Assembly: GCA_019419865.1 (NCBI GenBank)
Contig: JAHZIG010000004.1
Location: 91,094-155,093 of the forward strand
Length of the DNA stretch: 64,000 nt
Direction: 5' to 3'
DNA from: Clostridiales bacterium
Lineage (GTDB): Bacteria > Bacillota > Clostridia > Monoglobales > Monoglobaceae
Below, in pieces: positions 1 through 14,784 of the stretch. Under the pieces are notes generated by a model. It saw nothing but the letters and a program-made list of their open reading frames with translations, searched no databases and had not been told where the DNA came from. Both the position numbers and the translations under genes were made by a program. The first letter of the stretch is position 1. Every line of letters starts with the position of its first letter.

Positions 1-23
1 TTACATAGAGATGAGGTGATGTC

Positions 24-335
24 ATGGCAAAGGAATTGTTTCTATTAGCCGAAAAAATCAAAACCATTCGTGAACAACTGGGAATGACACAAGCGGAACT
101 CGCTCGAAAACTGGGATTGACCCGCTCCAGTATAAACGGTTGGGAAATGGGCTTGTCTGTTCCATCTACTCAATATATAGTTGAATTGGCGAAACTGTTT
201 CGTGTATCTACCGATTATCTGCTCGGCATGGAACAAGGAGCGGTATTAAATATAGATGATTTAACCGAAAAGGAAGTATCTGTTTTACTTGACGTAGCAA
301 ACTGTTTTCGTGCAAGACATACAAATGATGAATAA
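24..335 (+). CDS. XRE-family HTH transcriptional regulator of the element
   Basis: A 103-residue cytoplasmic DNA-binding protein. A Cro/CI-type helix-turn-helix fills residues 9-67 (TQAELARKLGLTRSSINGWE, then the typical STDYLLG end). The last 35 residues are an acidic tail of unknown role. The start has a purine-rich ribosome binding site (gatgaggtgatg). It is most likely a repressor controlling the mobile element, as in phages and integrative elements. It converges on the DUF6076-like gene, with a shared hairpin terminator between them. Family assignment is sure; the target genes are inferred. Confidence 0.88.
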   Translation: MAKELFLLAEKIKTIREQLGMTQAELARKLGLTRSSINGWEMGLSVPSTQYIVELAKLFRVSTDYLLGMEQGAVLNIDDLTEKEVSVLLDVANCFRARHTNDE

Positions 336-455
336 CCTTTATTTTGTCCTCTAAACCGTCTACCACTTATATACGGCAACCTGCCCGATGAAATAGATTA
401 CAACGGTTTAACGTCCTCTTAACACGTCAAGAGCAGGACAATACATAGGCATAAG

Positions 456-485
456 AAAACGCCTCACAATGAAGTGGGGCGTTTT
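456..485. terminator. bidirectional intrinsic terminator
   Basis: The inverted repeat AAAACGCC (456-463) / GGCGTTTT (478-485) has T-rich ends in both directions. It sits between the stop of the plus-strand XRE gene and the stop of the minus-strand gene at 487, so it can serve both convergent genes. Confidence 0.8.
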
Positions 486-486
486 A

Positions 487-1635
487 CTATTTATACTGGC
501 TTTTTGGTTTTTTATATTGCTGTTTTCTTGCTTTCGTATTATCTTTGACTTCTTCCCAATATATATCCATCCAGTTTATATATTCTTGTTCTGTTATTTT
601 CTCTTTGGCAACTAAAGAACGTTTCTTTTTAGCTTGTTGCTTGAAGTTTTCAAGGTCTTTTTCACGTCTGTTTAATTCTCTTTGAGTAATGTAAGTTCCG
701 CTTATTCGATTAGATAACATTGTATAGATGGTTTTATATTTTCGTCTACTTGCTTTAGACCTATCCCCGGATAATTTTTGTTCATGTTTTACCTGGAGCT
801 TACAAGTTCTATTATAATTTTCTGGGCTGGGATTTTCACAATATTTTTGTTTTGCATTCATTGCTACAAAATAATTATTACAATGTTGACACACTTTGAT
901 ATGATACCTATCATAAAATATTTCCTGTAGTGAAGCAAACAATAATTCTTCAATGCTATTTATATGGTAACTGACATTACACAAATATTCTGATTGATCA
1001 GAAGTTTTTTCTAACTTATCACATAATTGTGATTGGTTGTATTTTCTGATTTCTGAAAATTGTATGCTTTTAAAACCATTTAATTGAACGCCAAGAATGC
1101 TTGAAACACTATACAAAGTATTCATAGTGCAATATTTATTTTCCGAAACACAAATTTTTATAAAATTTACACAATTCTCCATTCTGCTATATATATCTAA
1201 GCGTTTCGGCATATCTCTGTGGGGAGGATTATTCGAAAATAAAAGTTGTTTTACAACACAAAAGGTTAAAAAATACAATATATCCTTGTTCAAAGGAAAA
1301 TGTTGTTTTTTAAAAAAGTGTTCTGTAAATAAACATTTATCTACATTTTGAAAAGGAAAATTATCATACTCATGTTCAAAAACTTCAAAACAAAGTTCAT
1401 AAGCAGCACTTTGATTTGCTCTTATAAAGCCAATCATAGCTGGTACTAAATGCATACAAGCTGAAAGAATTGTTCCAATAGGATAAGTTGTGTCTTTAAA
1501 CTCAATACCAGTTTTATCAGCCATATATGAAAAGTACATTTCTATTTCTTCCGATGGTACATCATCAGGAATAACCACCAAATTTTCTCTATTATTAATT
1601 CTATCTACAACGTAATATAATTGCTTTTCTTGCAT
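487..1635 (-). CDS. DUF6076-like zinc-binding protein of mobile elements
   Basis: About 382 residues. The start at 1635 is preferred over a GTG at 1644 because GAGG lies 8 bases upstream of this ATG. The body is helical and unrecognised. Near residues 255-285 there is a cysteine cluster, CQHCNNYFVA followed by KYCE and TCK, which resembles the short zinc ribbon of CGNR/DUF6076-type proteins. The C-terminal 100 residues are very Lys/Arg-rich and likely bind nucleic acid. Similar proteins are common in Clostridia integrative elements, but no function is established. A consensus promoter lies directly upstream, so it is probably expressed on its own. Confidence 0.6.
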   Translation of the reverse strand: MQEKQLYYVVDRINNRENLVVIPDDVPSEEIEMYFSYMADKTGIEFKDTTYPIGTILSACMHLVPAMIGFIRANQSAAYELCFEVFEHEYDNFPFQNVDKCLFTEHFFKKQHFPLNKDILYFLTFCVVKQLLFSNNPPHRDMPKRLDIYSRMENCVNFIKICVSENKYCTMNTLYSVSSILGVQLNGFKSIQFSEIRKYNQSQLCDKLEKTSDQSEYLCNVSYHINSIEELLFASLQEIFYDRYHIKVCQHCNNYFVAMNAKQKYCENPSPENYNRTCKLQVKHEQKLSGDRSKASRRKYKTIYTMLSNRISGTYITQRELNRREKDLENFKQQAKKKRSLVAKEKITEQEYINWMDIYWEEVKDNTKARKQQYKKPKSQYK

Positions 1636-1670
1636 AAATCTCACCTCAAAATTTCATTGTTCCCCTTATA

Positions 1671-1699
1671 ATTATAATATAAAAGCGAATAACTGTCAA
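1671..1699 (-). promoter_or_regulatory. sigma-A promoter of the DUF6076-like gene
   Basis: On the minus strand TTGACA (1694-1699) is followed after 17 bases by TATAAT (1671-1676). Both boxes match consensus, about 40 bases upstream of the start at 1635. Confidence 0.85.
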
Positions 1700-1860
1700 T
1701 AGTAAGTCGATTAAGTGTATGCTATACTAATTCCAGAATCGATTCAAACCTTTACGGTAAGTGCTTATCGTTAAAAGAAACGGAGGTATGTGGTATAAAC
1801 AACTATTTTTGTGAAAGCAAGTATCTATCTGTATCAGCAATTTTATAGGAGGATTTTAAA

Positions 1861-2079
1861 ATGAGTAAAAACTTTGAGTTTTACAACTATTCAGACGAAA
1901 GATCTGATGAGCTTGAATTTTCAAAAATGCTTAGGATAGAGATGAAAGTGATGGATTTCTTCGTTAAAGAAGCACAAGATGCATTGACAAATCATGAAAT
2001 TTCTTTAGCAGATGAAATGCTATCATTTATTAAAGAAGTCATTAAACGAGACATGGAGATCATAGAATCTTCCCTATAA
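1861..2079 (+). CDS. small acidic protein of the element, unknown function
   Basis: A 72-residue protein with a strong ribosome binding site (aggagg, spaced before ATG). It is largely helical and acidic, with no recognised domain, membrane segment or metal motif. It lies between the DUF6076-like gene and the primase, 85 bases before the latter, and is probably co-transcribed with the replication block. Real by RBS and position; I do not recognise the family. Confidence 0.6.
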   Translation: MSKNFEFYNYSDERSDELEFSKMLRIEMKVMDFFVKEAQDALTNHEISLADEMLSFIKEVIKRDMEIIESSL

Positions 2080-2164
2080 TTTCTATATTTTAAAATCAAG
2101 GCTCTGCTATAAGGAGCCGATTGTTCTTTGACAACTGAATAGCAGAGCCAGAAAGAGGTGTATC

Positions 2165-3592
2165 ATGACGCAAGATGAAATCATGCGGTCAAAATGGGTG
2201 GCAAGGAATGCAGACGGTAAGGTATATATCGTAACGCAGGAGCTTTATAAATATCTCCACGATTTTGTCCATCTAATTACAACAGATAGCGGTAACATAT
2301 ACCTTTATGACGGCAGCGGGGTTTGGAAACGAATTACACCCAACACATGCAAAGGTATCATCAAAGAGTTTCTCCCCATTAGATATCGAACGTATAGGCA
2401 TTGGAATTCCATTTTTGAGGAATTTATGACGGATTTGTCTGATGTTGAAGAAAAAGACTTCAACTCCGACGAAAACATCATTAACTTCCAAAACGGAATT
2501 CTGGATTTGAGGACAATGGAATTAAATCCACACAGTCCAAAGTGCCTATCAACAATTCAAATACCTTGTGCATACAATCCAGATTTAACTTGGGATAATG
2601 CACCGGTATTCAAGAAGTATCTGACGGATTTACTTGGTGATGATGAAGTTACTAAAGTATTTTTACTGGAATTCCTCGGTGCTATTATTTCCAATATCTA
2701 TGGCTGGCGATACAAGAAAATGTTGCTTATGGTTGGTGATGGAAACACAGGCAAGTCAGTTCTTCGAGAATTGGCAATGCACTTGGTAGGATTGGATAAT
2801 TGTGTATCAATCGAGCTAAAAAGGCTTGGCGAACGGTTTGGCAGTTCTGCCCTATACGGAAAGCGCTGCTCAGGCAGTGGAGATCTCGGATTTGTTGAGT
2901 TACCAGAAGTTAACATTATCAAGCAACTAACTGGCGGAGATGAATTATACGCTGAGTTTAAAGGTAAAGATAGCTTCACCTTTAGATATGACGGTTTTTT
3001 ATGGTGTAACTGCAATCGTTTACCATATTTCCGTTCAGACCGTGGGCAATGGGTGTATAACCGTTTCTGCATTGTGAGATGTGATAATGTCATTCCACCA
3101 GAAAGGCAGGATAAACAGCTAATCGACAAGCTGATAGCTGAAAAAGAAGCTATCGTAAATATAGCACTTCAACACTTCCGCAAGACAATCGAGCGTGGTT
3201 ATCGTTTTACCGAAAGCGAAAGCATGAGGATAGAACGAGAACGGTACACCATTGAAAATAATTCGTTATTAACATTTGTTAAGGAGCGTTGCATACTGTT
3301 GAAAGGCTATACAAAACGTTCAGAATTTAACGAATCATATGTAAAATGGTGTCAGCAAAATCTTGTTAAACCAGAACGTCAACGAGATGTTGGTCGTCAA
3401 CTGGAAGAAACATTTGGCATTACAGCTACTAAGAGAAACGGTTATTTTATATATAATCTAAGCATTCCCGATGAAGATTATGAAGCTATGGCAGAATACA
3501 GTTATAATCAACTAAAAGCCATCACGAAAAGCAAAGAAAATCAAAACAACTCCTCGGGTTCTAACGAACCCTCAGAGGGAAAAGAGCGGTAA
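2165..3592 (+). CDS. phage/plasmid primase-helicase, D5/P4 family
   Basis: A 475-residue SF3-type replication protein. An N-terminal D5_N-like region (residues 1-150) precedes the ATPase core. Walker A is GDGNTGKS at about residue 191. The Walker B/sensor region includes GSGDLGFVELPEVN, followed by the C-terminal P4-type winged-helix part (residues 370-450). Such enzymes unwind and prime the origin of phages, plasmids and integrative elements after excision. The N-terminal prim-pol domain of long P4 primases is missing, so this is a helicase-type protein. The final 25 residues are a low-complexity polar tail. The RBS is aaagagg. Confidence 0.88.
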   Translation: MTQDEIMRSKWVARNADGKVYIVTQELYKYLHDFVHLITTDSGNIYLYDGSGVWKRITPNTCKGIIKEFLPIRYRTYRHWNSIFEEFMTDLSDVEEKDFNSDENIINFQNGILDLRTMELNPHSPKCLSTIQIPCAYNPDLTWDNAPVFKKYLTDLLGDDEVTKVFLLEFLGAIISNIYGWRYKKMLLMVGDGNTGKSVLRELAMHLVGLDNCVSIELKRLGERFGSSALYGKRCSGSGDLGFVELPEVNIIKQLTGGDELYAEFKGKDSFTFRYDGFLWCNCNRLPYFRSDRGQWVYNRFCIVRCDNVIPPERQDKQLIDKLIAEKEAIVNIALQHFRKTIERGYRFTESESMRIERERYTIENNSLLTFVKERCILLKGYTKRSEFNESYVKWCQQNLVKPERQRDVGRQLEETFGITATKRNGYFIYNLSIPDEDYEAMAEYSYNQLKAITKSKENQNNSSGSNEPSEGKER

Positions 3593-3603
3593 CAAAGACA
3601 CAA

Positions 3604-3688
3604 GGGCGTAAAGGGCGAGTGTAACAGACTTTGGAACGAGTTTTGAAAAAGCTGAAGCGAAAAGATGACAGAACTCGCCCCAACGCCC
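3604..3688 (+). other. two-stem long hairpin after the primase gene
   Basis: Nested inverted repeats GGGCGT (3604-3609) / ACGCCC (3683-3688) and GGGCGAGT (3613-3620) / ACTCGCCC (3673-3680) enclose a 52-base loop. There is no T-run, so it is not a simple terminator. It lies in the gap between the primase stop and the next start and could be an origin structure, RNA-processing site or leader. Confidence 0.55.
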
Positions 3689-3714
3689 CTAACACAAAGA
3701 AAGGCGGAATTAAC

Positions 3715-3987
3715 ATGCCAATAACAGTATTGGGAAAAAAGAGCGTCAACGGTATAAGTCAAAAAACAGGAAATCGCTATCAGGGTACAATCATTCAGTA
3801 TTCCTATGATGATGCCAATAGTGAACGTGGTAAATCCGTTGGTTCAGCTTATGTTAGTGAGATACTGCATTTTGGGGACAACATCAACATTTTTAGTGAT
3901 TACGAATTAGAATTAGACCCAGTTAAAAAATATGCTACACGATTTGAACTTGTGGAACTGGATAGCTATTTTAAACAATTAAAATAA
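3715..3987 (+). CDS. small element protein, unknown function
   Basis: About 90 residues, starting at ATG 3715 behind AAAGGCGG. The reading frame is open back to 3631, but that part runs through the hairpin and lacks an RBS. The sequence begins MPITVLGKKSVNG and is predicted mostly beta-strand, with GNRYQGTII and a YELELDP turn. It resembles small hypothetical proteins that follow primases in Clostridia elements. No function is known. The next gene begins 16 bases later, so the two are likely one operon. Confidence 0.6.
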   Translation: MPITVLGKKSVNGISQKTGNRYQGTIIQYSYDDANSERGKSVGSAYVSEILHFGDNINIFSDYELELDPVKKYATRFELVELDSYFKQLK

Positions 3988-4003
3988 AAAGGAGGTAATT
4001 ATC

Positions 4004-4261
4004 TTGAAGAAAACAGTGCAAATTAAAGTACTCAATGCTGAGGTCAGAACGAAAGGTCGCAGACATGATAATATTATAACATTTAAAAAATTCCCTTTTG
4101 GAATTAAAAAGCGCACAACCTGGGTAGGTGGTTATGTCATCCGCCCCGTTGAACTTGTTGTTGGTGGAATCTATTGCTTTGAGTATGCACCATCTGGGCA
4201 TATCAGTAAGATGGAACTTCTCGAAAAAAGAAATCGGAAGACTTCTTTTTGGCAGTCATAA
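4004..4261 (+). CDS. small basic element protein, unknown function
   Basis: An 85-residue protein starting at TTG, justified by a strong aaaggaggt 7 bases upstream; no nearby ATG has one. It is Lys/Arg-rich and beta-rich (VGGYVIRPVELVVGG), with no recognised domain. It probably shares a transcript with the primase and the preceding small gene. Confidence 0.55.
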   Translation: MKKTVQIKVLNAEVRTKGRRHDNIITFKKFPFGIKKRTTWVGGYVIRPVELVVGGIYCFEYAPSGHISKMELLEKRNRKTSFWQS

Positions 4262-4307
4262 ATGATATTGTAAACGGGATAAATGAGGTCTTTGTTTAAA
4301 CTGACAT

Positions 4308-4547
4308 ATGGTACAAGTTATCTTGAATATAAATAACATAGCAAGAAAGGGGGTAGAGCCAATTTTGGAAGTGATTGTTCACTACCCTAAACAAGAATCA
4401 GATAAACAAGCCTTGCGGCAAAAAGTATCCGAAGTTCAAGCCGAGGCAGTCACAAAATACATTTCAAAATTGACTTGCCCCCTTGAACAAAAACGAAAAC
4501 TGGTGCAAGCCATCCAAGAGAAAACGAGAAACGGTCAGAAAAATTGA
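4308..4547 (+). CDS. small helical element protein, unknown function
   Basis: 79 residues from ATG 4308. A TTG at 4365 sits 11 bases after a GGGGG stretch and may be the true start, giving about 60 residues. The C-terminal half is a charged helix with paired Lys/Glu. It is the last gene of the plus-strand run and ends at a strong terminator. Small proteins like this often sit beside recombinase genes, but I cannot assign a role. Confidence 0.5.
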   Translation: MVQVILNINNIARKGVEPILEVIVHYPKQESDKQALRQKVSEVQAEAVTKYISKLTCPLEQKRKLVQAIQEKTRNGQKN

Positions 4548-4558
4548 CCGTTTCTTTT
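4529..4558 (+). terminator. intrinsic terminator of the element's replication operon
   Basis: AAACGGTCA (4529-4537) pairs with TGACCGTTT (4545-4553) around a 7-base loop, followed by CTTTTTC. It overlaps the stop of the last small gene and separates it from the converging XRE gene. Confidence 0.88.
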
Positions 4559-4585
4559 TCTATTTTCGGCTATTATATAAACTTT

Positions 4586-5134
4586 TTATAAATTAGCCGA
4601 AGTTTTGACATTGAGTTTTAACAATTTCTCCCATGTTCCCTTAAACATACGCACCTTATCCTGCTCCCAGCGTTTGACCTTGTATAAATCAACATTCATC
4701 ATAGCGGCAAGCTGTTTCTGTGTGATATGCAAACGTTTGCGAATAGCTTTTATCTGCTGACCTTGCCCGTCATACAGAAAACGATTGTAATCGTCCAGCA
4801 GTTCATAGACGTCAATGTGATACAACGCCGCCAGCTTATCCACCATAGCGGCTGGGTAAAAATCCCGTTGGTTATCTTCATAATCGCCATACGTCCCTCT
4901 ATCCATTCCGATATACGCCGCAACGTCCTTTTGGTGCATGGCTTTTTGATAGCGGTAGTATTTCAGCTTGTCCGATATATTGGTAATATCCGCCGGATTG
5001 GTATAGAGCAGATTGAACTTTTCACCCTCTCTATTGGTGGACGGTTTCAGTAGTCGAATGGTATGGATATACATGGGCATGAAAATCGTTCCGTTTGCCC
5101 GATGGCTGTACAACAGATACATTTGACCGTTCAT
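4586..5134 (-). CDS. double XRE-type HTH regulator next to the sigK junction
   Basis: 182 residues with two helix-turn-helix regions. One is at about residues 58-110 (QKDVAAYIGMDRGTYGDYED). The other is at about 127-175 (ITQKQLAAMMNVDLYKVKRWE). The first 50 residues are unassigned. The start lies only 5 bases after the stop of the truncated sigK frame, on the same strand, and I see no promoter between them. It may therefore be read from the sigK promoter, that is, in the mother cell. This makes it a candidate regulator of element excision or maintenance; that role is inference. Only a weak GGCGG-like ribosome site precedes it. Confidence 0.8.
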   Translation of the reverse strand: MNGQMYLLYSHRANGTIFMPMYIHTIRLLKPSTNREGEKFNLLYTNPADITNISDKLKYYRYQKAMHQKDVAAYIGMDRGTYGDYEDNQRDFYPAAMVDKLAALYHIDVYELLDDYNRFLYDGQGQQIKAIRKRLHITQKQLAAMMNVDLYKVKRWEQDKVRMFKGTWEKLLKLNVKTSANL

Positions 5135-5139
5135 TTTGG

Positions 5140-5547
5140 TTAAAATCCGCCAGTTTCTAAAATAGGGGGCTGAATTTCCCTCTTTTTGTTCAAAAAGAGC
5201 CGCTGCGAGCGTATTGTTTTTTCAACGCATCTTGCCGCATACGTGGCGAGCCGCGTTCCTTTCGACGGATCGAAACTGTTGATCCCCTTTATCAATCCTA
5301 TGGTTCCTATCGAGATCAAATCCTCGCTGTCCCTTGTGGACTGAGAATATTTTTTCGCTATATGCGCGACCAATCTCAAGTTGTGCTCTATCAGTTTGTT
5401 TCCGGCTTCAACGCTGCCGTTCATAAATTCGTCGATGCATTTCTTTTCCTCCTCCGGCGGCAGCGGTTTGGGGAACGAGTTGTTGTTCGATATATATGAG
5501 AGCAGCGCGACGAGAGATTGAAGCAACGCGTCGAAAAAAAATAACAT
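5140..5547 (-). CDS. sigK: sigma-K 5' part, interrupted by the element
   Basis: Residues 1-109 match the N-terminal half of the late mother-cell sigma factor sigma-K. A hydrophobic pro-sequence-like start precedes the NNSFPKPL cleavage region. Then come LIEHNLRLVAHIAKKY, the region 2 motif DLISIGTIGLIKGI and LATYAARCVE. At the point where an intact protein reads ENEIL, the frame enters foreign sequence (26 residues) and stops. Regions 3 and 4 (-35 recognition) are absent, so this product cannot be an active sigma factor unless the element is excised. The pro-sequence implies processing by SpoIVFB, unlike C. difficile SigK. RBS is GGAGG. Confidence 0.9.
   Translation of the reverse strand: MLFFFDALLQSLVALLSYISNNNSFPKPLPPEEEKKCIDEFMNGSVEAGNKLIEHNLRLVAHIAKKYSQSTRDSEDLISIGTIGLIKGINSFDPSKGTRLATYAARCVEKTIRSQRLFLNKKREIQPPILETGGF
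5180..5199. repeat. inverted repeat beside the sigK junction
   Basis: CTCTTTTTG (5180-5188) and CAAAAAGAG (5191-5199) form a near-perfect palindrome with a 2-base centre, about 20 bases inside the element from the junction. It could be a recombinase half-site or chance structure. Confidence 0.4.
5215..5227. other. sigK/element junction (one attachment site)
   Basis: On the minus strand sigK identity runs through codons TGC GTT GAA and the first bases of AAA (about 5229-5219). The intact gene would continue AAY GAR ATH. The crossover therefore lies within GTTGAAAA. This is the same sigma-K position (ARCIEN-EI) that holds the skin junction in B. subtilis. The exact core needs the left junction or an excised copy. 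Confidence 0.65.
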
Positions 5548-5575
5548 ATAATTACCTCCGTTAATCAGTCTGGTA

Positions 5576-5584
5576 ATTTATATG
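5576..5584 (-). promoter_or_regulatory. possible mother-cell -10 box of sigK
   Basis: The minus strand reads GCATATAAATT 29 bases before the sigK ATG. The same 11 bases occur in the spoIIID promoter. It resembles the sigma-E -10 consensus (CATACANT). No good -35 is visible 13-15 bases further upstream, and a GGACTTG near it only loosely resembles a SpoIIID site. Confidence 0.45.
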
Positions 5585-5644
5585 CTAAATATCTTTCTTC
5601 TTTGCAAGTCCTAATTTATTTTGAGTTATTTTCAATTATGAAAT

Positions 5645-5780
5645 GATCAAAGGTGCATCTTTAAGAATAAAAAATATTCTCTGAATATTTAAGCAGGCCA
5701 GCCAAGCTAAAGATGCACAACCGGTCAGGTCTCCAACCTTTTGGCTTATTGAAAGATTTTGGGAAGAAATCTTCTTTTTA
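5645..5780 (+). ncRNA. candidate structured RNA ending in an intrinsic terminator
   Basis: Between sigK and trpB2 there is no reading frame, but the plus strand shows nested pairing. GTGCATCTTTA (5653-5663) pairs with TAAAGATGCAC (5708-5718), enclosing an AT-rich hairpin. AGCCAA (5700-5705) can pair with TTGGCT (5741-5746) as an alternative or pseudoknot-like partner. A terminator follows directly. Both flanking genes are on the minus strand and start or end away from it, so this would be a free-standing small RNA. I do not recognise a known family. The 5' end is not defined. Confidence 0.5.
5753..5780 (+). terminator. intrinsic terminator of the candidate RNA
   Basis: AAGATTT (5753-5759) pairs with AAATCTT (5767-5773) around TGGGAAG-type loop bases, followed by CTTTTT. 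The T-run is on the plus strand only, which sets the direction of transcription. Confidence 0.75.
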
Positions 5781-5907
5781 TACTACATATTATAAATTAT
5801 AAATTTCTAAATTTCAATTAATATTTTGTATACAAAGATTTTTTGTCTAAAATATCTATATAATTTATAAATTTTTTATGCAATTATACCAAAACGCTTA
5901 TCAAAAA

Positions 5908-5945
5908 TCAAAAGCCCCGGGCGCGACGCTAACGGTCCGGAGCTA
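5908..5945 (-). terminator. terminator of the trpB2 gene
   Basis: On the minus strand AGCTCCGG and CCGGGGCT form a stem just past the trpB2 stop and are followed by TTTTGATTTTTG. Confidence 0.7.
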
Positions 5946-5950
5946 AAATA

Positions 5951-7321
5951 CTAATCGATCTGCGGCAATGAATCAAAACCTTTTTGCAAGTCCTCGTCCG
6001 TCGGAATATAGTCGGTCATCGCTCCGTCATGATACGCGGTATACGCCGACATATCGAAATATCCCGTACCGGTCAGGCCGAACAGAATATTTTTCGCCTC
6101 TCCCGTTTCCTTGCATTTTAAAGCTTCGTCTATAGCGACCTTGATCGCGTGAGACGACTCGGGCGCGGGCAGCGTTCCTTCGGTTTTGGCAAATTCTATA
6201 GCGGCGTCGAACACCTTTGTCTGTTCTACGCTTCTTGCGGTTATATAACCGTCGTGATACAGCTTAGACACGATAGGAGACATGCCGTGGTATCTGAGTC
6301 CGCCGGCATGGTTCGGCGAGGGGATGAAACCGCTTCCTAAAGTATACATTCTCATAAGCGGCGTGGTCTTGCCTGTATCTCCAAAGTCGTACGCGTACCT
6401 GCCTCTCGTCAAAGACGGACACGAAGCGGGTTCGACGGCTATAAACTCGATATCGTTTTTGTTTAATATTTTTCCTTCCATAAACGGCGAGATCAATCCG
6501 CCCAAATTAGAACCGCCGCCCGCGCAGCCGATTATGATATCCGGCTCCACGCCGTATTTATCGAGCGCCGTTTTAGCCTCTAAACCTATCACCGTTTGAT
6601 GGAGCAGTACGTGGTTCAAAACGCTTCCCAAAACATAACGGCAATTCTCCGTCTTTAAAGCCAGTTCCATCGCTTCGGATATGGCGCAGCCCAACGAACC
6701 GCCGGTATTGGGATTCTCAGCGAGTATCTTGCGTCCGACCTCGGTAGTATCCGACGGCGACGCTATCACTTTTCCGCCGTAGGTCTGGATCACAGCGCGT
6801 CTGTGCGGCTTTTGCTCGGCGGATACCTTGACCATGAAAACGGTCAGATCGACGTTATAGAACGCGCAAGCCATCGCGAGCGCCGTTCCCCATTGTCCCG
6901 CTCCGGTCTCGGTCGTAAGATGCGTAAGCCCCTGCTTCTTAGCGTAATAGACCTGAGCGACCGCCGAATTCAACTTATGCGAACCGGACGTGTTCTGCCC
7001 TTCAAATTTATAGTATATCCTCGCGGGAGTGTCGAGCGCTTTCTCCAAATTATACGCTCTGACCACCGGCGAAGGTCTGTACATTCTGTAAAAATCCCGT
7101 ATCTCCTCGGGGATGTCTATATATAGATCCGTAGTATTCAATTCCTGAGCGATCAGATCGTCGCAAAATACCGGCCTTAGGTCGTCGGCCGTGCAGGGCT
7201 GACGCGTAGCCGGGTTTATAAACGGATCCGGCAGTTCTTTCATTACTGCGCGCACGTTATGCCACTGCTTCGGAAGCTCTTCCTCGGTCAAAAATATCTT
7301 ATATGGGATATCATATTTCAT
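5951..7321 (-). CDS. trpB2: tryptophan synthase beta chain, TrpB2 type
   Basis: About 456 residues from the ATG at 7321, which has GAGGAGG at proper spacing; the frame's first Met, 7 codons upstream, has none. It is a PLP enzyme that joins indole and serine. The PLP lysine lies in GSHKLNSA (near residue 115). The phosphate-binding loop is GCAGGGSNLGG and the core has ETGAGQWGTA. The longer N-terminal region and length are typical of the TrpB2 subgroup, not of the TrpA-bound TrpB1. No other trp gene is nearby, so it may salvage indole. Convergent with nothing; own terminator downstream. Confidence 0.9.
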   Translation of the reverse strand: MKYDIPYKIFLTEEELPKQWHNVRAVMKELPDPFINPATRQPCTADDLRPVFCDDLIAQELNTTDLYIDIPEEIRDFYRMYRPSPVVRAYNLEKALDTPARIYYKFEGQNTSGSHKLNSAVAQVYYAKKQGLTHLTTETGAGQWGTALAMACAFYNVDLTVFMVKVSAEQKPHRRAVIQTYGGKVIASPSDTTEVGRKILAENPNTGGSLGCAISEAMELALKTENCRYVLGSVLNHVLLHQTVIGLEAKTALDKYGVEPDIIIGCAGGGSNLGGLISPFMEGKILNKNDIEFIAVEPASCPSLTRGRYAYDFGDTGKTTPLMRMYTLGSGFIPSPNHAGGLRYHGMSPIVSKLYHDGYITARSVEQTKVFDAAIEFAKTEGTLPAPESSHAIKVAIDEALKCKETGEAKNILFGLTGTGYFDMSAYTAYHDGAMTDYIPTDEDLQKGFDSLPQID

Positions 7322-7474
7322 ACTGCGATTCCTCCTCGTCATATAAAAGGTCTATATTGATCCCAAAATGTCGTTCAAGCTATAAAATAAGCGAACGGAC
7401 TTTATGATTCCATATTATATCCAAATTCTTAAATTATGTCAAGGATCTACGGCCGCGCGTTTACAAAGCGCTTG

Positions 7475-7654
7475 TCAGTCGCCGCAGAGTTCGTCAAGCG
7501 ACACGGAAAGCTCCTCGGCAAGCTTTTTGGCGGTCGAAACCTTACAGTCGCCGCGGCGTTCTATATCTTCTATAGTCCGTATCGGGACCTCGGACAGTTT
7601 TGACAGCTCCGGAACGCTCAGCCCTTTATCTTTTCTTATAATTCTAAGTTTCAA
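7475..7654 (-). CDS. minimal XRE-type HTH protein
   Basis: A 59-residue protein starting at TTG 7654 behind GAGGAGG. Almost the whole chain is one Cro/CI helix-turn-helix (LSVPELSKLSEVPIRTIEDI, ending SVSLDELCGD). It lies between trpB2 and spoIIID on the minus strand. It is probably a small DNA-binding regulator. Very short XRE proteins of this kind are common in Clostridia, with unknown targets. Confidence 0.7.
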   Translation of the reverse strand: MKLRIIRKDKGLSVPELSKLSEVPIRTIEDIERRGDCKVSTAKKLAEELSVSLDELCGD

Positions 7655-7825
7655 TTTTACGCCTCCTCTTTTATAACGATCAAATTCAATAAAACTCGTA
7701 TTTATGCGCAGACGTCCGCTCTATAAATATACCGTAACGCGCAAAATTTATCAAGAGTTATTTACGAATACTTCTGCGTCCTGGGAGCGGCTCGCTCAAT
7801 TTATCCGGTTCAGAACGCCGCGCCC

Positions 7826-7856
7826 GGAATATATAGCGGCGGCCGCGCATATAAAT
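7826..7856 (+). promoter_or_regulatory. probable sigma-E promoter of spoIIID
   Basis: GGAATATA (7826-7833) resembles the sigma-E -35 (ATATT-like). After about 14 bases comes CATATAAAT (7848-7856), close to the -10 consensus CATACANT. It is 35 bases before the spoIIID start. spoIIID is sigma-E dependent in B. subtilis. Confidence 0.6.
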
Positions 7857-7890
7857 TGAGTAAAATGTAAAATATAGGGAGGCTGTTTAT

Positions 7891-8340
7891 GTGAATATGA
7901 ATGGCGTATTCGACGATTTAAACAACAACGACCGCCAAAACGACGCGGCAAGCGACCTTTTCCGTCAAGATACGAGCGTCCGTGAAAGTAATACATACGG
8001 CGGCGTCTATGCCGATAAGGATAAATTGGATAGGCTGAAAAACGCGGCGTATAAATATACTCGAGAGGGAAGACCGAGGGACATTGAATACAGAACAGTC
8101 TGCTTGGCGAATTATATAGTCGAAAACAAATGCACGGTCAGAGACGCCGCCAAAGCCTTCGGCGTTTCCAAATCCACCGTACATAAGGACGTTACTCAGA
8201 GACTCGGCAAAATTAACAGGCGGCTCGCGGAAGAAGTCGGCGCCGTTTTGCTGAAGAACAAAAGCGAAAGACATATACGCGGCGGCTGCGCGACGAGAGA
8301 AAAATATAAACAAAGACGGAAAACTCCGGCCGCAGGATAG
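7891..8340 (+). CDS. spoIIID: stage III sporulation DNA-binding regulator SpoIIID
   Basis: 149 residues from a GTG behind AGGGAGG (an ATG two codons later is possible). Residues 62-140 match SpoIIID: LANYIVENKCTVRDAAKAFG, then VSKSTVHKDVTQRL and the basic RHIRGG..ATREKYK end. SpoIIID is a small mother-cell activator and repressor that sits between sigma-E and sigma-K and switches on sigK. Usual length is 80-95 residues. This copy has about 60 extra N-terminal residues, polar and probably disordered. It lies 2.3 kb from sigK, and a sigma-E-like promoter precedes it. Confidence 0.9.
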   Translation: MNMNGVFDDLNNNDRQNDAASDLFRQDTSVRESNTYGGVYADKDKLDRLKNAAYKYTREGRPRDIEYRTVCLANYIVENKCTVRDAAKAFGVSKSTVHKDVTQRLGKINRRLAEEVGAVLLKNKSERHIRGGCATREKYKQRRKTPAAG

Positions 8341-8400
8341 GCATATATATCGATCCAAATATTTATAAACCAATATAGGAATTTCTTCCCGATCTAAATA

Positions 8401-8426
8401 GCCCGCCGCAAATAAACGCGGCGGGC
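8401..8426. terminator. GC-rich hairpin between spoIIID and the MATE gene
   Basis: GCCCGCCGC (8401-8409) and GCGGCGGGC (8418-8426) form a perfect stem with an 8-base loop between convergent genes. T-runs on both sides are weak. Confidence 0.65.
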
Positions 8427-8441
8427 GCAACTATTAAATTT

Positions 8442-9842
8442 CTATTTTGCAGTCTTGGCTTTTCTTATACCCAACGTATCCTTCTCCCAGCCGCGGAGAC
8501 GGTATAACACGTAGAGTACTGCCGCCGAAATACCGTTGCTCACCACTACCGAATACCATATGCTTTCAACTCCCATATGCAATATATTCTGGCAGAAGAA
8601 TATCGTCGCGAACCTAAACACCCACAGTCTCGCCGCTTCTACGAGCATCGTAGCCTTCGTCTTGCCCGAACCGTTCAAGAGACCTATTGTGCAGTTGTAC
8701 ACGCCGTTGGTGAAGCACCATGTAGCCATAATGGCGATGAAATCGACCGCCATAGGAACTACCGCGTCGTCGCTCGTAAATATATTTACCATCAGCGTTG
8801 CAACCGGCTCTCGAGCCAGGATCATCCCAAGAACAAACAGGAATACGACCGCGAAGTTTCTCGCGTATTTATAACCCCTTTCCGCTCTGTCCAGCTGTCC
8901 CGCTCCGAGGTTCTGTCCGACTATCGTTGACGTCGCGGAGCCGAGCGCGTTCGCGGGAAGGGTGACTACAGAGTTGATCTTATTCCCCACCCCGTACGCC
9001 GCCATAGCCTCGGCGCCGAATACGTAGACGTTCTTCGACATGAGCACAAATCCGAATTGCATCGCGCTGTTGCCTACGGCCGTCGGGAAGCCAACCGTGA
9101 TTATCTTTTTTATTTTCTTCCAATCCGGTCTCATACTCCTAAGGTCGAGATGTATATAGTTCTTTTTATTGAGCAGCGAGATCAGGCCTATCGCCGCGCA
9201 CGGGATCTTAGCGCCCAGCGTTGCCAGCGCGGCTCCCGCTATCCCCATATCGAGACCGAACATCAGAAGCGGATCGAGGCACATATTTATAAATATTCCT
9301 AAAAAGTTGACCAGCATCGGCGATATGGTATTTCCCTGAGCCTGATTTACCGCCGAGTAGATGTTCATTATAAACAAAAATGGCATATCCAGAACCACTA
9401 TTCTAAGATATGTGTTGCTCGGCGCCATGAGCTCGGCGTCGGCGCCCATCCAGCCGATTATGAGCGGAGAGGCGGCGCATAAAACCGCGGCGCACACTAT
9501 TGAAAATATCATGGAACACAGAAATATCTGGTTCGCCATTCCTTTTCCGTTTTTCTCGTCGCCCGCGCCTATGTACTGCGAGATCAATATAGACCCCGCC
9601 ATCGTTATGCCCTGCCCAAAGCTCATTACCGTGCTTTGCACGGGCGACACAAGAGAGATGGCCGCCTGAGGGATCGTGCCTATCTTCCCCAGCCAAAATG
9701 TGTCGGTCAAATTATACATGCTCTGCAGAAAATTAGTAATGATTATCGGTACGGCCAGCATTATCAAGGCCTTAGATATCTTACCGTTTAGTATCAGTTC
9801 CTTATTGTTCTTAACTGTAAATATACTTTTTAGTCCGCCCAT
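8442..9842 (-). CDS. MATE-family multidrug/sodium exporter
   Basis: 466 residues, about 12 membrane segments, typical of MatE proteins (two repeats starting near residues 24 and 245). It expels organic cations or other drugs in exchange for Na+ or H+. The N-terminal QSMYNLTDTFWLG segment and the QGITMAGSILISQYIGAG loop are characteristic. RBS is GGAAGGCGG. It is divergent from an AraC-type regulator 203 bases away, which may control it. The substrate cannot be read from the sequence. Confidence 0.9.
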   Translation of the reverse strand: MGGLKSIFTVKNNKELILNGKISKALIMLAVPIIITNFLQSMYNLTDTFWLGKIGTIPQAAISLVSPVQSTVMSFGQGITMAGSILISQYIGAGDEKNGKGMANQIFLCSMIFSIVCAAVLCAASPLIIGWMGADAELMAPSNTYLRIVVLDMPFLFIMNIYSAVNQAQGNTISPMLVNFLGIFINMCLDPLLMFGLDMGIAGAALATLGAKIPCAAIGLISLLNKKNYIHLDLRSMRPDWKKIKKIITVGFPTAVGNSAMQFGFVLMSKNVYVFGAEAMAAYGVGNKINSVVTLPANALGSATSTIVGQNLGAGQLDRAERGYKYARNFAVVFLFVLGMILAREPVATLMVNIFTSDDAVVPMAVDFIAIMATWCFTNGVYNCTIGLLNGSGKTKATMLVEAARLWVFRFATIFFCQNILHMGVESIWYSVVVSNGISAAVLYVLYRLRGWEKDTLGIRKAKTAK

Positions 9843-10045
9843 ACGTACCGCCTTCCAATCTGTTTTTAAGATAGACTAAGTATACGGCAAAAAAAGAATA
9901 AATACCTCTAATTATTTATCCAATTTATCTAAAACTTAATTTTTTTGTCTATATTCACTATATACTTTTAATTTATTTGTGCTATACTTATCTCAAAGGT
10001 CGATCTAAGTTTACTAAAATATATTATTTTATGAGGCGATAGGTT

Positions 10046-10879
10046 ATGAAAACGGCGCAACTTCCCAAAATCAAAGTCTCGCGTACGCTGCGGCTCGGCA
10101 ATTACAGCATGCACGAGTCGCACTACCACGACGATTACGAGCTGTATTATCTCGAAGAAGGGCGGAGCCGACTGTTTCTCGACAACAAGATATATACGCT
10201 GAGAGAGGGCGACTTGGCGCTGATCCCGCGCGGGATGATACACCGGGTCACTTCGATAAAAAATATCAGTCATACCCGCGTTGTGGCGATGATACCGTAC
10301 GACTTTATCGTATCCGTATTGGAGTCGCTGGGCGCCGAAGACAAAGACGAGTACCTCTCGGCCAAGGTAATATCTATCCCGGACAGCAAGATACACGAGT
10401 TTCAGGAACTTATCGACAATATACTTTTTGAAGAAGAACACAACGATAATATTTCGGGAATGATGATCGAGAGCTATATCCGTATTCTGCTCCTTACCAT
10501 GTTCCGCTATTATCAGCTTGAAAACGAGACCGCGCTGAAGTCGCCCAATACGACCGACGAGATCATACAACTTATGGCGCGGTTTATAAGTAAGAACTAT
10601 CAGAAAAATATAACCTTGAATATGGCGGCGGAAATGGCGAATCTGAGTCCGACGTATTTTTCAAAAAAGTTTAAGCAGAAAACCGGGTTTGGATTTAAGG
10701 ATTATCTGGTCAAGGTGCGGCTGATGGAAGCCGCAAAAATGCTGAAAAACTCCGACAAGTCGGTGACCGAAGTGGCTCTCGAATGCGGATTCAACGACAG
10801 CAATTACTTTGGCACAATGTTTAAAAAAGAGTTTAGCATACCTCCCGCAAAATTTAAGCGTACCAGCAAGTTGATCTGA
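10046..10879 (+). CDS. AraC-family transcriptional regulator with cupin sensor
   Basis: 277 residues. The N-terminal half is a cupin-like ligand domain (HYHDDYELYYLEEG, then GDLALIPRGMIH). The C-terminal 100 residues carry two AraC helix-turn-helix motifs (LNMAAEMANLSPTYFSKKFK and VTEVALECGFNDSNYFGTMF). Such proteins respond to small ligands, often sugars. It is divergent from the MATE exporter and likely regulates it or itself. The ligand is unknown. RBS is gaggcgata. Confidence 0.9.
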   Translation: MKTAQLPKIKVSRTLRLGNYSMHESHYHDDYELYYLEEGRSRLFLDNKIYTLREGDLALIPRGMIHRVTSIKNISHTRVVAMIPYDFIVSVLESLGAEDKDEYLSAKVISIPDSKIHEFQELIDNILFEEEHNDNISGMMIESYIRILLLTMFRYYQLENETALKSPNTTDEIIQLMARFISKNYQKNITLNMAAEMANLSPTYFSKKFKQKTGFGFKDYLVKVRLMEAAKMLKNSDKSVTEVALECGFNDSNYFGTMFKKEFSIPPAKFKRTSKLI

Positions 10880-10890
10880 CATATAAAAAC

Positions 10891-10924
10891 GCCGCAGAAA
10901 CAGTGTATAATCTGCTTCTGCGGC
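10891..10924. terminator. hairpin terminator shared by the AraC and fruA genes
   Basis: GCCGCAGAA (10891-10899) pairs with TTCTGCGGC (10916-10924). It sits between two convergent stop codons; both flanks are moderately T/A-rich. Confidence 0.75.
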
Positions 10925-10960
10925 TTTGCGTTTGATTTATATCTCTATCAATAATAGATA

Positions 10961-12901
10961 TTAATTTTCTTTCTTAGGCTTTTTGAGGATCGCCAGCAAT
11001 AACATTCCCACTACTGAGCCGGCTATAAGCGAGATTATATATCCGCCTACGTTTCCGACGACCGGGAATACGAATATCCCGCCGTGAGGAGCCATAAGCG
11101 TACAGCCGAACGCCATCGACAACGCTCCCGAGACCGCGCTTCCGATTATACAGGACGGCAGCACGCGAAGAGGATCCGACGCCGCGAACGGGATAGCGCC
11201 CTCGCTTATAAAGCAAAGACCCATGATATAGTTTACTACGCCCGACTTTCTCTCGTTGGCGGTGAATCTGTTCTTGAAGAAGGTCGTAGCCAGCGCGATA
11301 GCGAGCGGCGGAACCATGCCTCCGACCATTACGGCCGCCATTATATCATAGTTGCCCTCGGATATCGCCGCGGTGCCGAATACGTACGCCGCCTTATTGA
11401 ACGGACCGCCCATATCTATCGACATCATGCCGCCCAGAACCATGCCCAAAACTATCTTACTCGCTCCGTTCATCGCGTGCAGTCCGTTGCTGAGCAGAGT
11501 ATTGAGCCATGCTATTATCGGGTTGAATATACACATCACGACGCCCATGATAAGTATGCCGATAAGCGGATACAGAAGCACCGGTTTGATCCCTTCGAGA
11601 CTCTGCGGCAATTTTGCAAACAACTTTTCAAGACCTAATGTGATATAGCCGCCTACAAAACCGGCGAACAACGCTCCGAGGAAGCCCGCAGTAACTCCGC
11701 CCGACGGTTCCGCGAACGTCATGCCCGAAACCGCTAAGGCGCCGCCTACGAAACCTACCGCAAGACCGGGTCTGTCCGCGATACTCATCGCTATGAATCC
11801 CGCGAGTATCGGGAGCATAAATCCAAACGCCGTATCTCCTACCGTTTTAAAGAACGCGGCGAGAGGGGTATTGGTACCGAAGTTGCTCGGATCTATCGAA
11901 TAGTCGTCCAACAGAAAGGCCAGCGCTATCAAGATACCTCCGCCTGTGACGAACGGCAGCATATGAGATACGCCGTTCATCAAATGCTTATATATCGTAT
12001 GACCTACTCCGTCGCCGCCTTTGCTTTCGGACGAAGCCGCCGCGCCGCCGCCTTTATGGTTATATACCCCGGCGGAGCCGCTCGTTATTTTCTCTATAAG
12101 CTCTTTGGGTTTATGGATACCGTCCGAGACCTTTGTCTGGACCATTCTCTTGCCGTTGAATCTCGCCATCTCGACGTTTTTATCCGCCGCGATTATGACG
12201 CCGTCGGCTTCGGCGATCTCCTTGCTTGTCAGCTCGTTCTTGGTTCCGCCGCTGCCGTTTGTTTCGACCTTGATCTCGACTCCCATTTCAGCGGCCGCCT
12301 GTTCGAGCGCCTCCGCCGCCATAAAAGTATGGGCTATTCCGGTCGGACATGCGGTGACGGCTACTATCTTTACGTTCTTTTTCGCCGCGGCGCCTGCCGG
12401 AGCGGAGCTCTTCGCTTCGCTTTGACCGCCTTCGTCGCCGTACTTTTCCTTTTCTTTTTTATCGATCAGCTCAAGGAATTCCTTAGGAGATTTCGCCGCC
12501 AAAAGACTGGCTCTGAAGTCCTCGTTCATAAGCATTACCGTAAGTCTCGACAATACCTCGAGATGCGTATCGGCTCCCGACGCGGGCGCGGCTATCATAA
12601 ATATCAGGTTCGACTTTTCGCCGTCCAGCGCGTCAAGGTCTATCCCGCCGGGAACGGTTACCGCCGCGAGACCGGGTCTCCTTACGGCTCCGCTCTTGGC
12701 GTGCGGTATCGCTACTCCGTCGCCTATAGCCGTAGGCCCCTCTTCTTCTCTCTTTAAAATATCCGCCTTAAACTGTTTCTTATCCGAAATCGTTCCGGCT
12801 CCGTCGTGCAGTGAGATCAACTTGTCGTATAGCTGTTCTTTAGATCCCGGAGCGTAATTTAACGCTATTGAGTTGGGTTTCAGCAAGTCGATGATCTTCA
12901 T
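10961..12901 (-). CDS. fruA: fructose PTS transporter, EIIABC fusion
   Basis: 646 residues in the order IIA-IIB-IIC. The IIA domain (1-150) has the phospho-histidine in AIPHAKSGA. The IIB domain (175-275) has the phospho-cysteine in TACPTGIAHT. The IIC membrane channel (300-645) has about nine segments. It imports fructose and releases fructose 1-phosphate, the substrate of the upstream FruK. It is the last gene of fruR-fruK-fruA. Clean start with GGGAG. Confidence 0.95.
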   Translation of the reverse strand: MKIIDLLKPNSIALNYAPGSKEQLYDKLISLHDGAGTISDKKQFKADILKREEEGPTAIGDGVAIPHAKSGAVRRPGLAAVTVPGGIDLDALDGEKSNLIFMIAAPASGADTHLEVLSRLTVMLMNEDFRASLLAAKSPKEFLELIDKKEKEKYGDEGGQSEAKSSAPAGAAAKKNVKIVAVTACPTGIAHTFMAAEALEQAAAEMGVEIKVETNGSGGTKNELTSKEIAEADGVIIAADKNVEMARFNGKRMVQTKVSDGIHKPKELIEKITSGSAGVYNHKGGGAAASSESKGGDGVGHTIYKHLMNGVSHMLPFVTGGGILIALAFLLDDYSIDPSNFGTNTPLAAFFKTVGDTAFGFMLPILAGFIAMSIADRPGLAVGFVGGALAVSGMTFAEPSGGVTAGFLGALFAGFVGGYITLGLEKLFAKLPQSLEGIKPVLLYPLIGILIMGVVMCIFNPIIAWLNTLLSNGLHAMNGASKIVLGMVLGGMMSIDMGGPFNKAAYVFGTAAISEGNYDIMAAVMVGGMVPPLAIALATTFFKNRFTANERKSGVVNYIMGLCFISEGAIPFAASDPLRVLPSCIIGSAVSGALSMAFGCTLMAPHGGIFVFPVVGNVGGYIISLIAGSVVGMLLLAILKKPKKEN

Positions 12902-12988
12902 GGAAATACTCTCCCTTCATATATATTTTTATAATAATTAAAATAATTTCCGCATACGTCTGTTTCCGCTTTGATCAAATTAATCGGG

Positions 12989-13891
12989 CTACAGAGTTTT
13001 AAGCAGCTCCTCGACCAGATCCTTTTCCGCCAAACCGGGCGAGAACGCGGTCGCGCTGCCGCAGGCCGTGCCGAGCTTTAAAGCTTCGCCGTAGTCGCCG
13101 GACTTCATATATCCCATCACAAAACCCGCTACCATCGAGTCTCCGGAGCCGACGGAATTTACGACCTTGCCTTTGGGCGCCCCGCTCTTTAAAGGCTCGC
13201 CCTTTTCCGGAACGAGTATCGCGCCGTCTCCGGCTCTTGAAATCAATACGTTCCTCGCTCCCTTATCCTGGAGCTTTTTCGCGTATTCGATAAGTTCGTC
13301 CTCGGTCTTTATCTCTATCCCGAATATCTCGCTAAGCTCGTGATTATTGGGCTTAATCAGGAAAGGCCGATACTTGAGAACGTTTACCAAAAGATTTCCC
13401 GTAGCGTCTACGACTATTTCGACGCCCTTACCTTCAAGCCTGCTCATTATCCTCTCGTATATGTCGTCCGGTAAACTCTTCGGCACGCTGCCCGCGAGGA
13501 TCAGCGTATCTCCGGCGCCTAATCCGTCTATCTTATCCATCAGCGCCCCGATAGCTTCGTCCGATATTTCCGGACCCTGACCGTTTATCTCGGTCTCTTC
13601 TCCGGCCTTTATCTTGACGTTAATCCTGCTTATACCCGTATTTAATTTTATAAAATCAGTTTTAACGCCCGACTTTGTCAGATATTTCTCGATCGCGTCG
13701 CCGGTAAATCCGGCTATAAATCCGAGCGCGGTATTTTCAACGCCCATATTCCTCATTACTACCGAAACGTTGATCCCCTTGCCTCCGTAGAACACTTCCT
13801 CGCCGCGGGTTCTGTTCACGGCTCCCGGTATTATCTCGTCCATGCGAACGACGTAATCTATCGCCGGATTAAAAGTAACAGTGTAAATCAT
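12989..13891 (-). CDS. fruK: 1-phosphofructokinase
   Basis: 300 residues, PfkB family. Signature regions are the N-terminal GGKGINVSVVMRNMG and the C-terminal GSGDSMVAGFVMGY with the catalytic aspartate. It phosphorylates fructose 1-phosphate to fructose 1,6-bisphosphate. It overlaps fruR by four bases (ATGA) and lies 87 bases before fruA, which supplies its substrate. RBS AGGAGG lies inside the end of fruR. A tagatose-6-P kinase is the only close alternative; the operon settles it. Confidence 0.94.
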   Translation of the reverse strand: MIYTVTFNPAIDYVVRMDEIIPGAVNRTRGEEVFYGGKGINVSVVMRNMGVENTALGFIAGFTGDAIEKYLTKSGVKTDFIKLNTGISRINVKIKAGEETEINGQGPEISDEAIGALMDKIDGLGAGDTLILAGSVPKSLPDDIYERIMSRLEGKGVEIVVDATGNLLVNVLKYRPFLIKPNNHELSEIFGIEIKTEDELIEYAKKLQDKGARNVLISRAGDGAILVPEKGEPLKSGAPKGKVVNSVGSGDSMVAGFVMGYMKSGDYGEALKLGTACGSATAFSPGLAEKDLVEELLKTL

Positions 13892-14640
13892 AGCATGACC
13901 TCCTTTATAACAGTCTTTTCTTTAAACTCGCCGCTTGGCGCTCTGTCGGTTATGATACAGCATTGATTAAGTTCGGCGAAAGTGACGGCCGAGGTTTTTT
14001 CAAACTTACTGCCGTCGGATAAAATATAGGTCACGAAGGCTCTTCCGACAGCCTCCGACTTGACCAGCGCCTCCTCGACGTCCGGCGTCGTAAAACCGAA
14101 ACTGAGATCGATCCCGTTCGTTCCGATAAACGCCTTGGTAAAATTATACTTCCTCATGTTATTTATACATTCGGCGCCGACGACCGCCTCGGTGGTCAGC
14201 TTGATCCGGCCGCCCACGATATACGCCTTAAAACCCATCTGCAAGAGCTTTTTGGCGTGGGCGATACCGTTCGTCACAAACGTCGCCTGAGTCCGCTCCG
14301 GGATAAAATCTATCATCGCGGCGGTCGTGGTGCCCGCGTCTATAAACACGAAATCCGAATCCTGTATAAACTGCGCCGCGTATTTGCCGATCGTCCGCTT
14401 CTCCTCGATATGCAGCAGCGATTTAGTGTTAAAATCCGGCTCGAATATGTTGCCCTCTTCGGTCAGCGCGGTCGCCCCGCCGTGCACCTTTTTAAGCTTT
14501 CCCATCTTCGACAGCGCGATGAGATCCCTCCGCACAGTGGATTCGGAAACCTTCAAAGCGTCCGTGAGCTCGTGGACGTCTACGGTATTCTGTATCTTTA
14601 TCAATTCAAGTATCTTTTTATGCCTCTCTTCCGTAATCAT
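13888..14640 (-). CDS. fruR: DeoR-family fructose operon repressor
   Basis: 250 residues. The N-terminal winged helix (residues 6-58) has the DeoR signature VSESTVRRDLIALSKMGKLK followed by HGGA. The C-terminal sugar-phosphate sensor domain has DAGTTTAAM. It is the first gene of the fructose operon and is expected to repress the promoter at 14785-14813, with fructose 1-phosphate as inducer by analogy with other FruR proteins. RBS is AAAGGCGG. Confidence 0.92.
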   Translation of the reverse strand: MITEERHKKILELIKIQNTVDVHELTDALKVSESTVRRDLIALSKMGKLKKVHGGATALTEEGNIFEPDFNTKSLLHIEEKRTIGKYAAQFIQDSDFVFIDAGTTTAAMIDFIPERTQATFVTNGIAHAKKLLQMGFKAYIVGGRIKLTTEAVVGAECINNMRKYNFTKAFIGTNGIDLSFGFTTPDVEEALVKSEAVGRAFVTYILSDGSKFEKTSAVTFAELNQCCIITDRAPSGEFKEKTVIKEVML

Positions 14641-14784
14641 ATTTTTCCACCGCCTTTCACGATTAAAAACGCTGCGATTCTTAATTCCCGTCCGCTCAAC
14701 CTGAATTTAGGATTGTATATTATTATTATCTCTATCCAGATGTTATATGTGCGTTTAAAAAATTTATCTCCTTGATTTAATTAT

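Follow-up and report, generated by a model that had tools for sequence, protein, structure and literature searches.

A split sigK gene in a Clostridia genome and the skin-like element that probably interrupts it

The mother-cell sigma factor gene sigK is broken at codon 110 in the 64,000-nucleotide stretch of DNA analysed here (the window), and we consider it likely that the DNA beyond the break belongs to one end of a skin-like element that a large serine recombinase (LSR) has inserted and that is excised in the mother cell. Skin elements are a textbook example of programmed DNA rearrangement. The break point, the empty site in a relative, the genes in the visible part of the element, and complete related elements carrying both sigK halves together with an LSR were all observed directly.

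The open reading frame at 5140–5547 on the minus strand encodes 135 amino acids and matches the spore_sigmaK profile TIGR02846 with an E value of 1.4e-46, the match covering only profile positions 5–115 of 227. Residues 1–109 close with ...ATYAARCVE at position 5221 and are followed by 26 foreign residues and a stop codon. The N-terminus of the fragment has what we take to be a resemblance to a pro-sequence, and the B. subtilis skin is presumably inserted at this same sigK codon. The G+C content is 36.5% to the left of the junction (1–5218) and 49.4% to the right of it. By tblastn, neither a sigK 3′ half nor an LSR was found elsewhere in the window. The window also carries SigE and SpoIIGA genes, and sigE (30140–30772) is its sole other good sigma factor match. 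The features around the junction are as follows.

5140..5218, minus strand: element end in the sigK frame, a 26-residue tail plus stop, of a type known from other sigKs
5219..5222, minus strand: crossover point, the AA at the start of codon 110 (5220–5219), within an A tract; placed by the end of the blastn alignment at 5219
5221..5547, minus strand: sigK 5′ part, codons 1–109, from the TIGR02846 match and comparison with the relative L001
5951..7342, minus strand: TrpB-like gene (NF009057), host DNA that flanks sigK on its 5′ side and is placed likewise in L001

An empty version of the site is present in the closest relative found, Ca. Roslinia caecavium (L001), which has an intact sigK of 227 amino acids at 10001–10684 that likewise adjoins a TrpB-like gene. 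Window positions 5219–15507 align with L001 positions 10329–1 at 92.2% identity (blastn, 10.35 kb); the alignment starts at the junction, and the first base that differs is 5218. Read along the sigK strand, the sequence is GTTGAAAAAACAATACG in the window and GTTGAAAACGAAATCC at the same place in L001. An earlier note on this DNA had described the sigK frame as good up to ATYAARCVE and foreign, with a stop, beyond; the TIGR02846 match and the end of the L001 alignment at the junction bear this description out.

These data bear on whether the fragment is simply a decayed gene, the insertion having killed sigK, its 3′ half having been lost, and the lineage now losing sporulation. The missing 3′ half in the window would fit this account, as would the 8% DNA difference between the window and L001 over 10 kb, which makes a loss in a single strain possible. 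The 5′ part is nevertheless clean, with 16 synonymous and 2 non-synonymous differences from L001 (dS 0.27, dN 0.008); this low dN/dS may date from before the insertion, and the neighbouring TrpB-like gene has a similar dN/dS pattern relative to L001. Decay is further countered by the position of the break, which falls at the crossover point used in nine other elements, and by the existence of a Roslinia-type sigK 3′ half with a foreign start (P0121). We judge it very unlikely that decay accounts for the split gene.

Protein relatives of the fragment point in the same direction as the empty site. Among the best 120 of 8000 scored relatives, 31 are shorter than 180 amino acids and 11 carry the tail KTIxSxRLFLNKKRE after the same SigK residue. 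The tail-bearing SigKs are 61–99% identical to the window fragment, tail counted in; because the same tail occurs on different SigKs, the insertion is not a chance event. In P0001 (12 member sequences, 4 contigs) the tail sits on a second Roslinia sigK haplotype. P0002–P0008 are full-length Roslinia-type sigKs, two of which (P0002 and P0003) match the window sequence exactly over residues 1–109. A search with the 3′ half returned P0121, in which the foreign start ends SRYEGVA before NEIL. Similar starts occur on other sigKs (P0128, SRQEGVA; P0138, SRWEGVA; P0129, SQCEGVA), and the frame of the sigK 3′ half in a complete element (G002) reads SRCEGVE. Both types of element end thus occur with Roslinia-type sigKs, the tail in P0001 and the window and the start in P0121, on separate contigs in the sequences read.

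The recurrence of the joint also weighs on the idea of an assembly artefact, in which a contig from another organism's element was joined to a Roslinia sigK. The window may come from a metagenome, where such a join is conceivable, yet the same joint appears independently in P0001 on the other sigK haplotype and, within the best 120 matches, in 10 further clusters on other sigKs, and related joints are present in the named records L002 and L004. We therefore give an artefact almost no credence. The proposal that sigK is cut by a skin-like element rather than decaying, also made in the earlier note, is upheld by the empty site, the intact sigKs, P0121, and the complete relatives with an LSR described below.

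The visible part of the element, window positions 1–5218, contains eight open reading frames.

24..335, plus strand: XRE regulator (HTH_3, E 6.3e-18)
487..1644, minus strand: DUF6076 protein (PF19553, E 7.3e-13)
1861..2079, plus strand: small ORF with no Pfam, NCBIfam or PHROG match
2165..3592, plus strand: P4-type primase/helicase (TIGR01613, E 7e-47)
3631..3987, plus strand: small ORF with no Pfam, NCBIfam or PHROG match
4004..4261, plus strand: small ORF with no Pfam, NCBIfam or PHROG match
4365..4547, plus strand: candidate recombination directionality factor (RDF) of 60 amino acids, from a family HMM; the ORF opens at 4308, and the TTG start at 4365 was picked by homology
4586..5134, minus strand: double-HTH XRE regulator at the element end (HTH_3, HTH_19, HTH_31)

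Several of these genes have counterparts in other sigK elements. Homologues of the double-XRE gene lie beside the sigK 5′ half in G032, G002 and G004 (53, 51 and 38% identity, respectively), and the XRE regulator at 24–335 is 92% identical to one in the G032 sigK element and 45% identical to one in G002. The primase has a homologue of 46% identity in the complete element of G002 (L010), where the DUF6076 protein has a weak one (24% over 123 amino acids, E 5.5e-5). PHROG matches among the eight ORFs are confined to the regulators and the primase. No phage structural gene and no relaxase were found in the visible part, the element DNA had no match among phages and plasmids, and searches of viral contigs with the primase, XRE and LSR sequences returned no relatives. 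Transfer-type genes are present in the related elements of G004 (MobA_MobL) and G032 (REP_ORF2-G2P). With a P4-type primase, XRE regulators, a DUF6076 protein and no virion gene, the visible content looks like that of a non-phage integrative element. The element-end DNA gave only two matches of 26–30 bases in 391 genomes of the class (best two candidates per genome) and two weak matches in 51 genomes of the order; with matches this short or weak, a close complete copy of the exact element was not found among these genomes.

More distant relatives are complete. Both sigK halves lie on one contig around an LSR in 18 relatives, a set chosen for having both halves (17 from the class draw, with G004 added), with inserts of 1.6 to 27 kb. 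Three of them, Clostridia bacterium RGIG3131 (G002, insert about 15.5 kb), Ca. Mediterraneibacter stercoripullorum (G004, about 9.2 kb) and G032 (taken as Ructibacterium gallinarum, about 10.9 kb), each carry the sigK 5′ half, the double-XRE gene, other genes, the LSR and the sigK 3′ half on one contig. Their LSRs contain Resolvase, Recombinase and Zn_ribbon_recom domains. G002 shares with the window, in the same order, the double-XRE gene, the small ORF, the P4-type primase, the weak DUF6076 homologue and the XRE regulator of 24–335, with extra cargo interspersed; G004 has only the double-XRE gene and the small ORF in common with the window. Joined in silico and aligned to P0006, the sigK halves read without a stop over 220 codons in G002, 226 in G032, and 149 in G004, where sigK is cut at both contig ends. 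Across the set, the halves are open in 18 of 18 as far as matched; the two stops encountered, in G002 and G335, fall beyond the junction, within element sequence.

Insert sizes, taken as the distance between tblastn matches to the sigK halves, fall to 1.62–1.63 kb in G074, G225, G107 and G401 and to 2.05 kb in G335 (taken as R. hungatei). The next inserts measure 2.7, 2.9, 4.2, 6.5, 6.5, 6.6 (G185, taken as R. cellulolyticum) and 7.0 kb, and the largest 9.2, 10.9, 13.8, 15.5, 16.3 and 27.2 kb (G019). Between the sigK 5′ half and the LSR, the four 1.6-kb inserts and G335 have an ORF of 62–70 amino acids (counted from ATG) in the same orientation, and most of the remaining DNA is filled by the LSR. 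Elements this small have room for little beyond the LSR and the small protein.

The cargo of the larger elements is varied. The 27-kb insert of G019 (L050, L051; contig 1, 700–728 kb) encodes tail sheath, baseplate, holin and endolysin proteins, which means that phage-tail and non-phage elements are served by one LSR clade; the G019 LSR row contains one TGA. Metabolic cargo occurs in the sigK-intervening element of G185, which encodes a carbon-monoxide dehydrogenase catalytic subunit (L117:14993–19537; TIGR01702, over the cut-off) and nitrate/sulfonate-type ABC transporter-like genes. Part of the G002 cargo (L010:1560–4949) matches the candidate defence families PDC-S49 and AbiGii. On contig 33 of G036 (L052), a sigK 5′ half is followed, near the contig end, by a homologue of the window double-XRE gene with 48% identity; this is probably another member of the element group in the same order.

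The junctions define a common crossover site. In nine complete elements with printed junctions, and on the 5′ side in the window, the sequences are consistent with a crossover at the AA with which codon 110 begins. A Glu or Asp codon precedes the AA on the 5′ side; the 3′ side reads GCAAATGA in eight of the nine and GAAAACGA in G002. A tree of 53 LSR rows, 27 of them adjoining sigK, requires five changes of the sigK label (5–7 in bootstrap trees, three forced by the starred branches, and a mean of 18 after shuffling). The LSRs of R. albus pRUMAL01, a C. difficile plasmid and a Terrisporobacter phage entered the analysis as tree rows only. In other LSR lineages, tblastn matches to the 5′ half extend to residue 112–119 and those to the 3′ half begin at 106–107; judged from these limits, their breakpoints would lie near the same codon. 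The LSR of the R. albus pRUMAL01 megaplasmid (L107, 6004–7719) is 50% identical to the sigK-site LSR of G032, and no sporulation gene is annotated in the 13.6 kb around it.

The small protein at 4365–4547 recurs with these recombinases. An HMM seeded with the small ORFs of the window, G002, G004, G032 and G019 was used to screen 9396 ORFs of 101 sequences, many of which are LSR loci. Among the non-seed matches, the 15 best (E up to 0.35) were each located no more than 1 kb from the start of an LSR, in some cases an LSR away from sigK. After iteration, the HMM found one copy in the window and in 15 of the 18 complete elements, and none of 2765 background ORFs was included (best background E 0.44). 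In the three elements without a copy (G083, G230 and G112), the LSR belongs to neither of the two main sigK clades. The small protein thus accompanies 15 of 15 main-clade LSRs and 0 of 3 others (Fisher p 0.0012), a value that overstates the association because 4 of the 15 had served as HMM seeds and several of the genomes are closely related. Weaker matches stand beside non-sigK LSRs in L082, L085, L086, L092 and L099, L066 aside, which ties the small-protein family to the LSR family rather than to sigK. From this distribution, the protein of about 60 amino acids is a candidate RDF of the LSR. All 58 of its database relatives are hypothetical or unnamed, and none is named as a directionality factor or as CD1234. 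Its structural model has two helices (pLDDT 87) and no fold match in the PDB at E≤0.001. The top PDB sequence match, mitochondrial ribosomal L1 (E 0.0022), is weak and was taken as chance, and a single-sequence model of P0273 was discarded for its poor quality. Scanning for sigma-E-like promoters ahead of the candidate RDF gave 4 of 16 at p<0.05 and nothing in the window (p 0.25), where the region was set by a different start codon; this outcome was rejected as evidence. Transcription of sigK could drive the ORF/LSR pair in the mini-skins; in the window, the candidate RDF ORF runs opposite to sigK.

The G032 LSR was used as a query in 391 class genomes (best three candidates per genome). Matches at E≤1e-100 were obtained in at least 42 genomes and at least 47 rows. 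A sigK half lies within 1.5 kb in 26 of the 47 rows, represented in G245 by only 39 residues; in a 27th split genome, G350, the 5′ half is about 4 kb from the LSR, with the contig ending beyond. Full-length sigK (E≤1e-80) was listed for 219 of the 391 genomes (best seven candidates per genome), including 11 of the 15 whose LSR is away from sigK. Split genes thus make up 11% (27 of 27+219). A second intact sigK, which the earlier note had raised as a sign of a decayed copy, did not turn up in the relatives, 0 of the 27 split genomes being on the full-length list. Among 51 genomes from the order of Ca. Roslinia, a single contig carries both halves in G019 and in G032; G036 has a 5′ half close to the end of a contig, and in G049 pieces of sigK lie at contig ends. 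In G001 (Ca. Roslinia), sigK is full-length and no LSR of the sigK-element family was found at E≤1e-60.

Taking the steps known for skinBs and skinCd (PMC6957869, PMC5025042, as described there), we propose the following model. The rest of the element and the LSR would lie to the left of base 1, along with a minus-strand sigK 3′ half. The LSR would integrate the element at sigK codon 110, and silent carriage would follow. In the mother cell, during sporulation, the LSR and the candidate RDF would cut the element out at the AA dinucleotide and rebuild an open sigK, while the spore would retain the interrupted copy; the element could therefore be inherited without spoiling sporulation. Excision and its mother-cell timing are what we infer by analogy with those systems.

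A true sigK-site integrant could also be excised at random, or be stuck, without developmental timing, its carriers sporulating poorly or relying on element-free siblings. The intact sigKs of the same haplotypes (P0002–P0008), which indicate that carriage is polymorphic, would be expected under such a scheme, and the sigma-E-like scan established no mother-cell promoter. The split genomes lack an entry on the full-length list, yet among 29 genomes searched for sporulation genes (the 27 split genomes, G001 and G004), spoIVA was found in 27 and spoIIID in 28, in some of them in pieces. The five smallest elements, with little beyond the LSR and the small ORF between open sigK halves, likewise speak against untimed excision, and we regard it as unlikely. 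Timed excision in the mother cell remains our preferred reading.

LSR elements that interrupt sigK are already known, Clostridia included. The window element resembles skinBs of B. subtilis, a defective prophage in sigK with the LSR SpoIVCA and the small RDF Skr, in the split sigK and, under the proposed model, in the pairing of an LSR with a small RDF and a mother cell that rebuilds sigK; compared by description, it differs in that its visible part has no phage structural gene (PMC6957869). With skinCd of C. difficile it shares, again by description, a location in sigK of a member of the Clostridia, and it would share an LSR (CD1231 in skinCd) with a small RDF (CD1234, 72 amino acids) (PMC5025042). 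C. difficile SigK has been published as lacking a pro-sequence, and skinCd as occupying another place in sigK than skinBs. Prophages in sigK of C. tetani, C. botulinum and C. perfringens strains (PMC5025042) and a 22-kb sigK insertion in B. cereus biovar anthracis (PMC10745906) also lie inside sigK, and are described there as prophages or as a large insertion. Skin elements reported before PMC5595907 held phage-related genes, according to that source, which describes gin, a non-phage element of 28.6 kb with three recombinases in gerE of Bacillus cereus ATCC10987. Like the window element, gin lies in a mother-cell sporulation gene; it has a serine recombinase and a directionality factor, as the window element is predicted to have, and its target gene, bacterial class and cargo are different (PMC5595907). 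The LSR-borne yin element in yabG of Clostridium botulinum, for which excision has been demonstrated, also interrupts a late sporulation gene but is prophage-like and has another target (PMC10747680). In the literature searched, which left most subscription journals outside, we found no description of sigK elements of such a make-up or of minimal skins. As far as that literature goes, the non-phage-like sigK element, the pairing of the LSR with a small protein, the mini-skins of two genes and the proportion of split sigK genes in Clostridia are new.

Taken together, we lean somewhat towards a broader interpretation, a portable sigK splice cassette that is a common form of control in Clostridia and consists of a codon-110 LSR and an RDF of about 60–70 amino acids from one undescribed family. 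The cassette would be the integration module of non-phage elements such as that in the window and of the phage-tail element, and would also occur bare, as the two-gene mini-skin of 1.6–2.0 kb. If this is true, a mini-skin would, in effect, serve its host as a sporulation checkpoint. With more than one LSR lineage involved and 27 split against 219 full-length genes, sigK rearrangement would be common rather than the exception that the skin element has been called in clostridia (PMC5025042). The LSR/small-protein pairing predicts the directionality factor, and whether sigK is a parasite's safe site or the element a host timing device is testable in the culturable Ruminiclostridium hungatei and R. 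cellulolyticum.

Other mother-cell genes also appear in pieces, and no description of a split spoIVA or spoIIID was found in the same literature. In G185, G247, G286, G403 and G112, spoIVA occurs as two pieces, covering profile positions 2–405 and about 398–492, that lie on one strand about 5.9–6.3 kb apart (about 39 kb in G112); spoIVA is among the annotation-missed genes of C. cellulolyticum H10 reported in PMC3533761. For spoIIID, residues 1–42 and 35–79 are about 65 kb apart on one contig in G185, and residues 6–41 and 34–79 about 20 kb apart on one contig in G339; the pieces are on two contigs in G112, and only the later part was found in G004. Several mother-cell genes may thus be interrupted within one genome.
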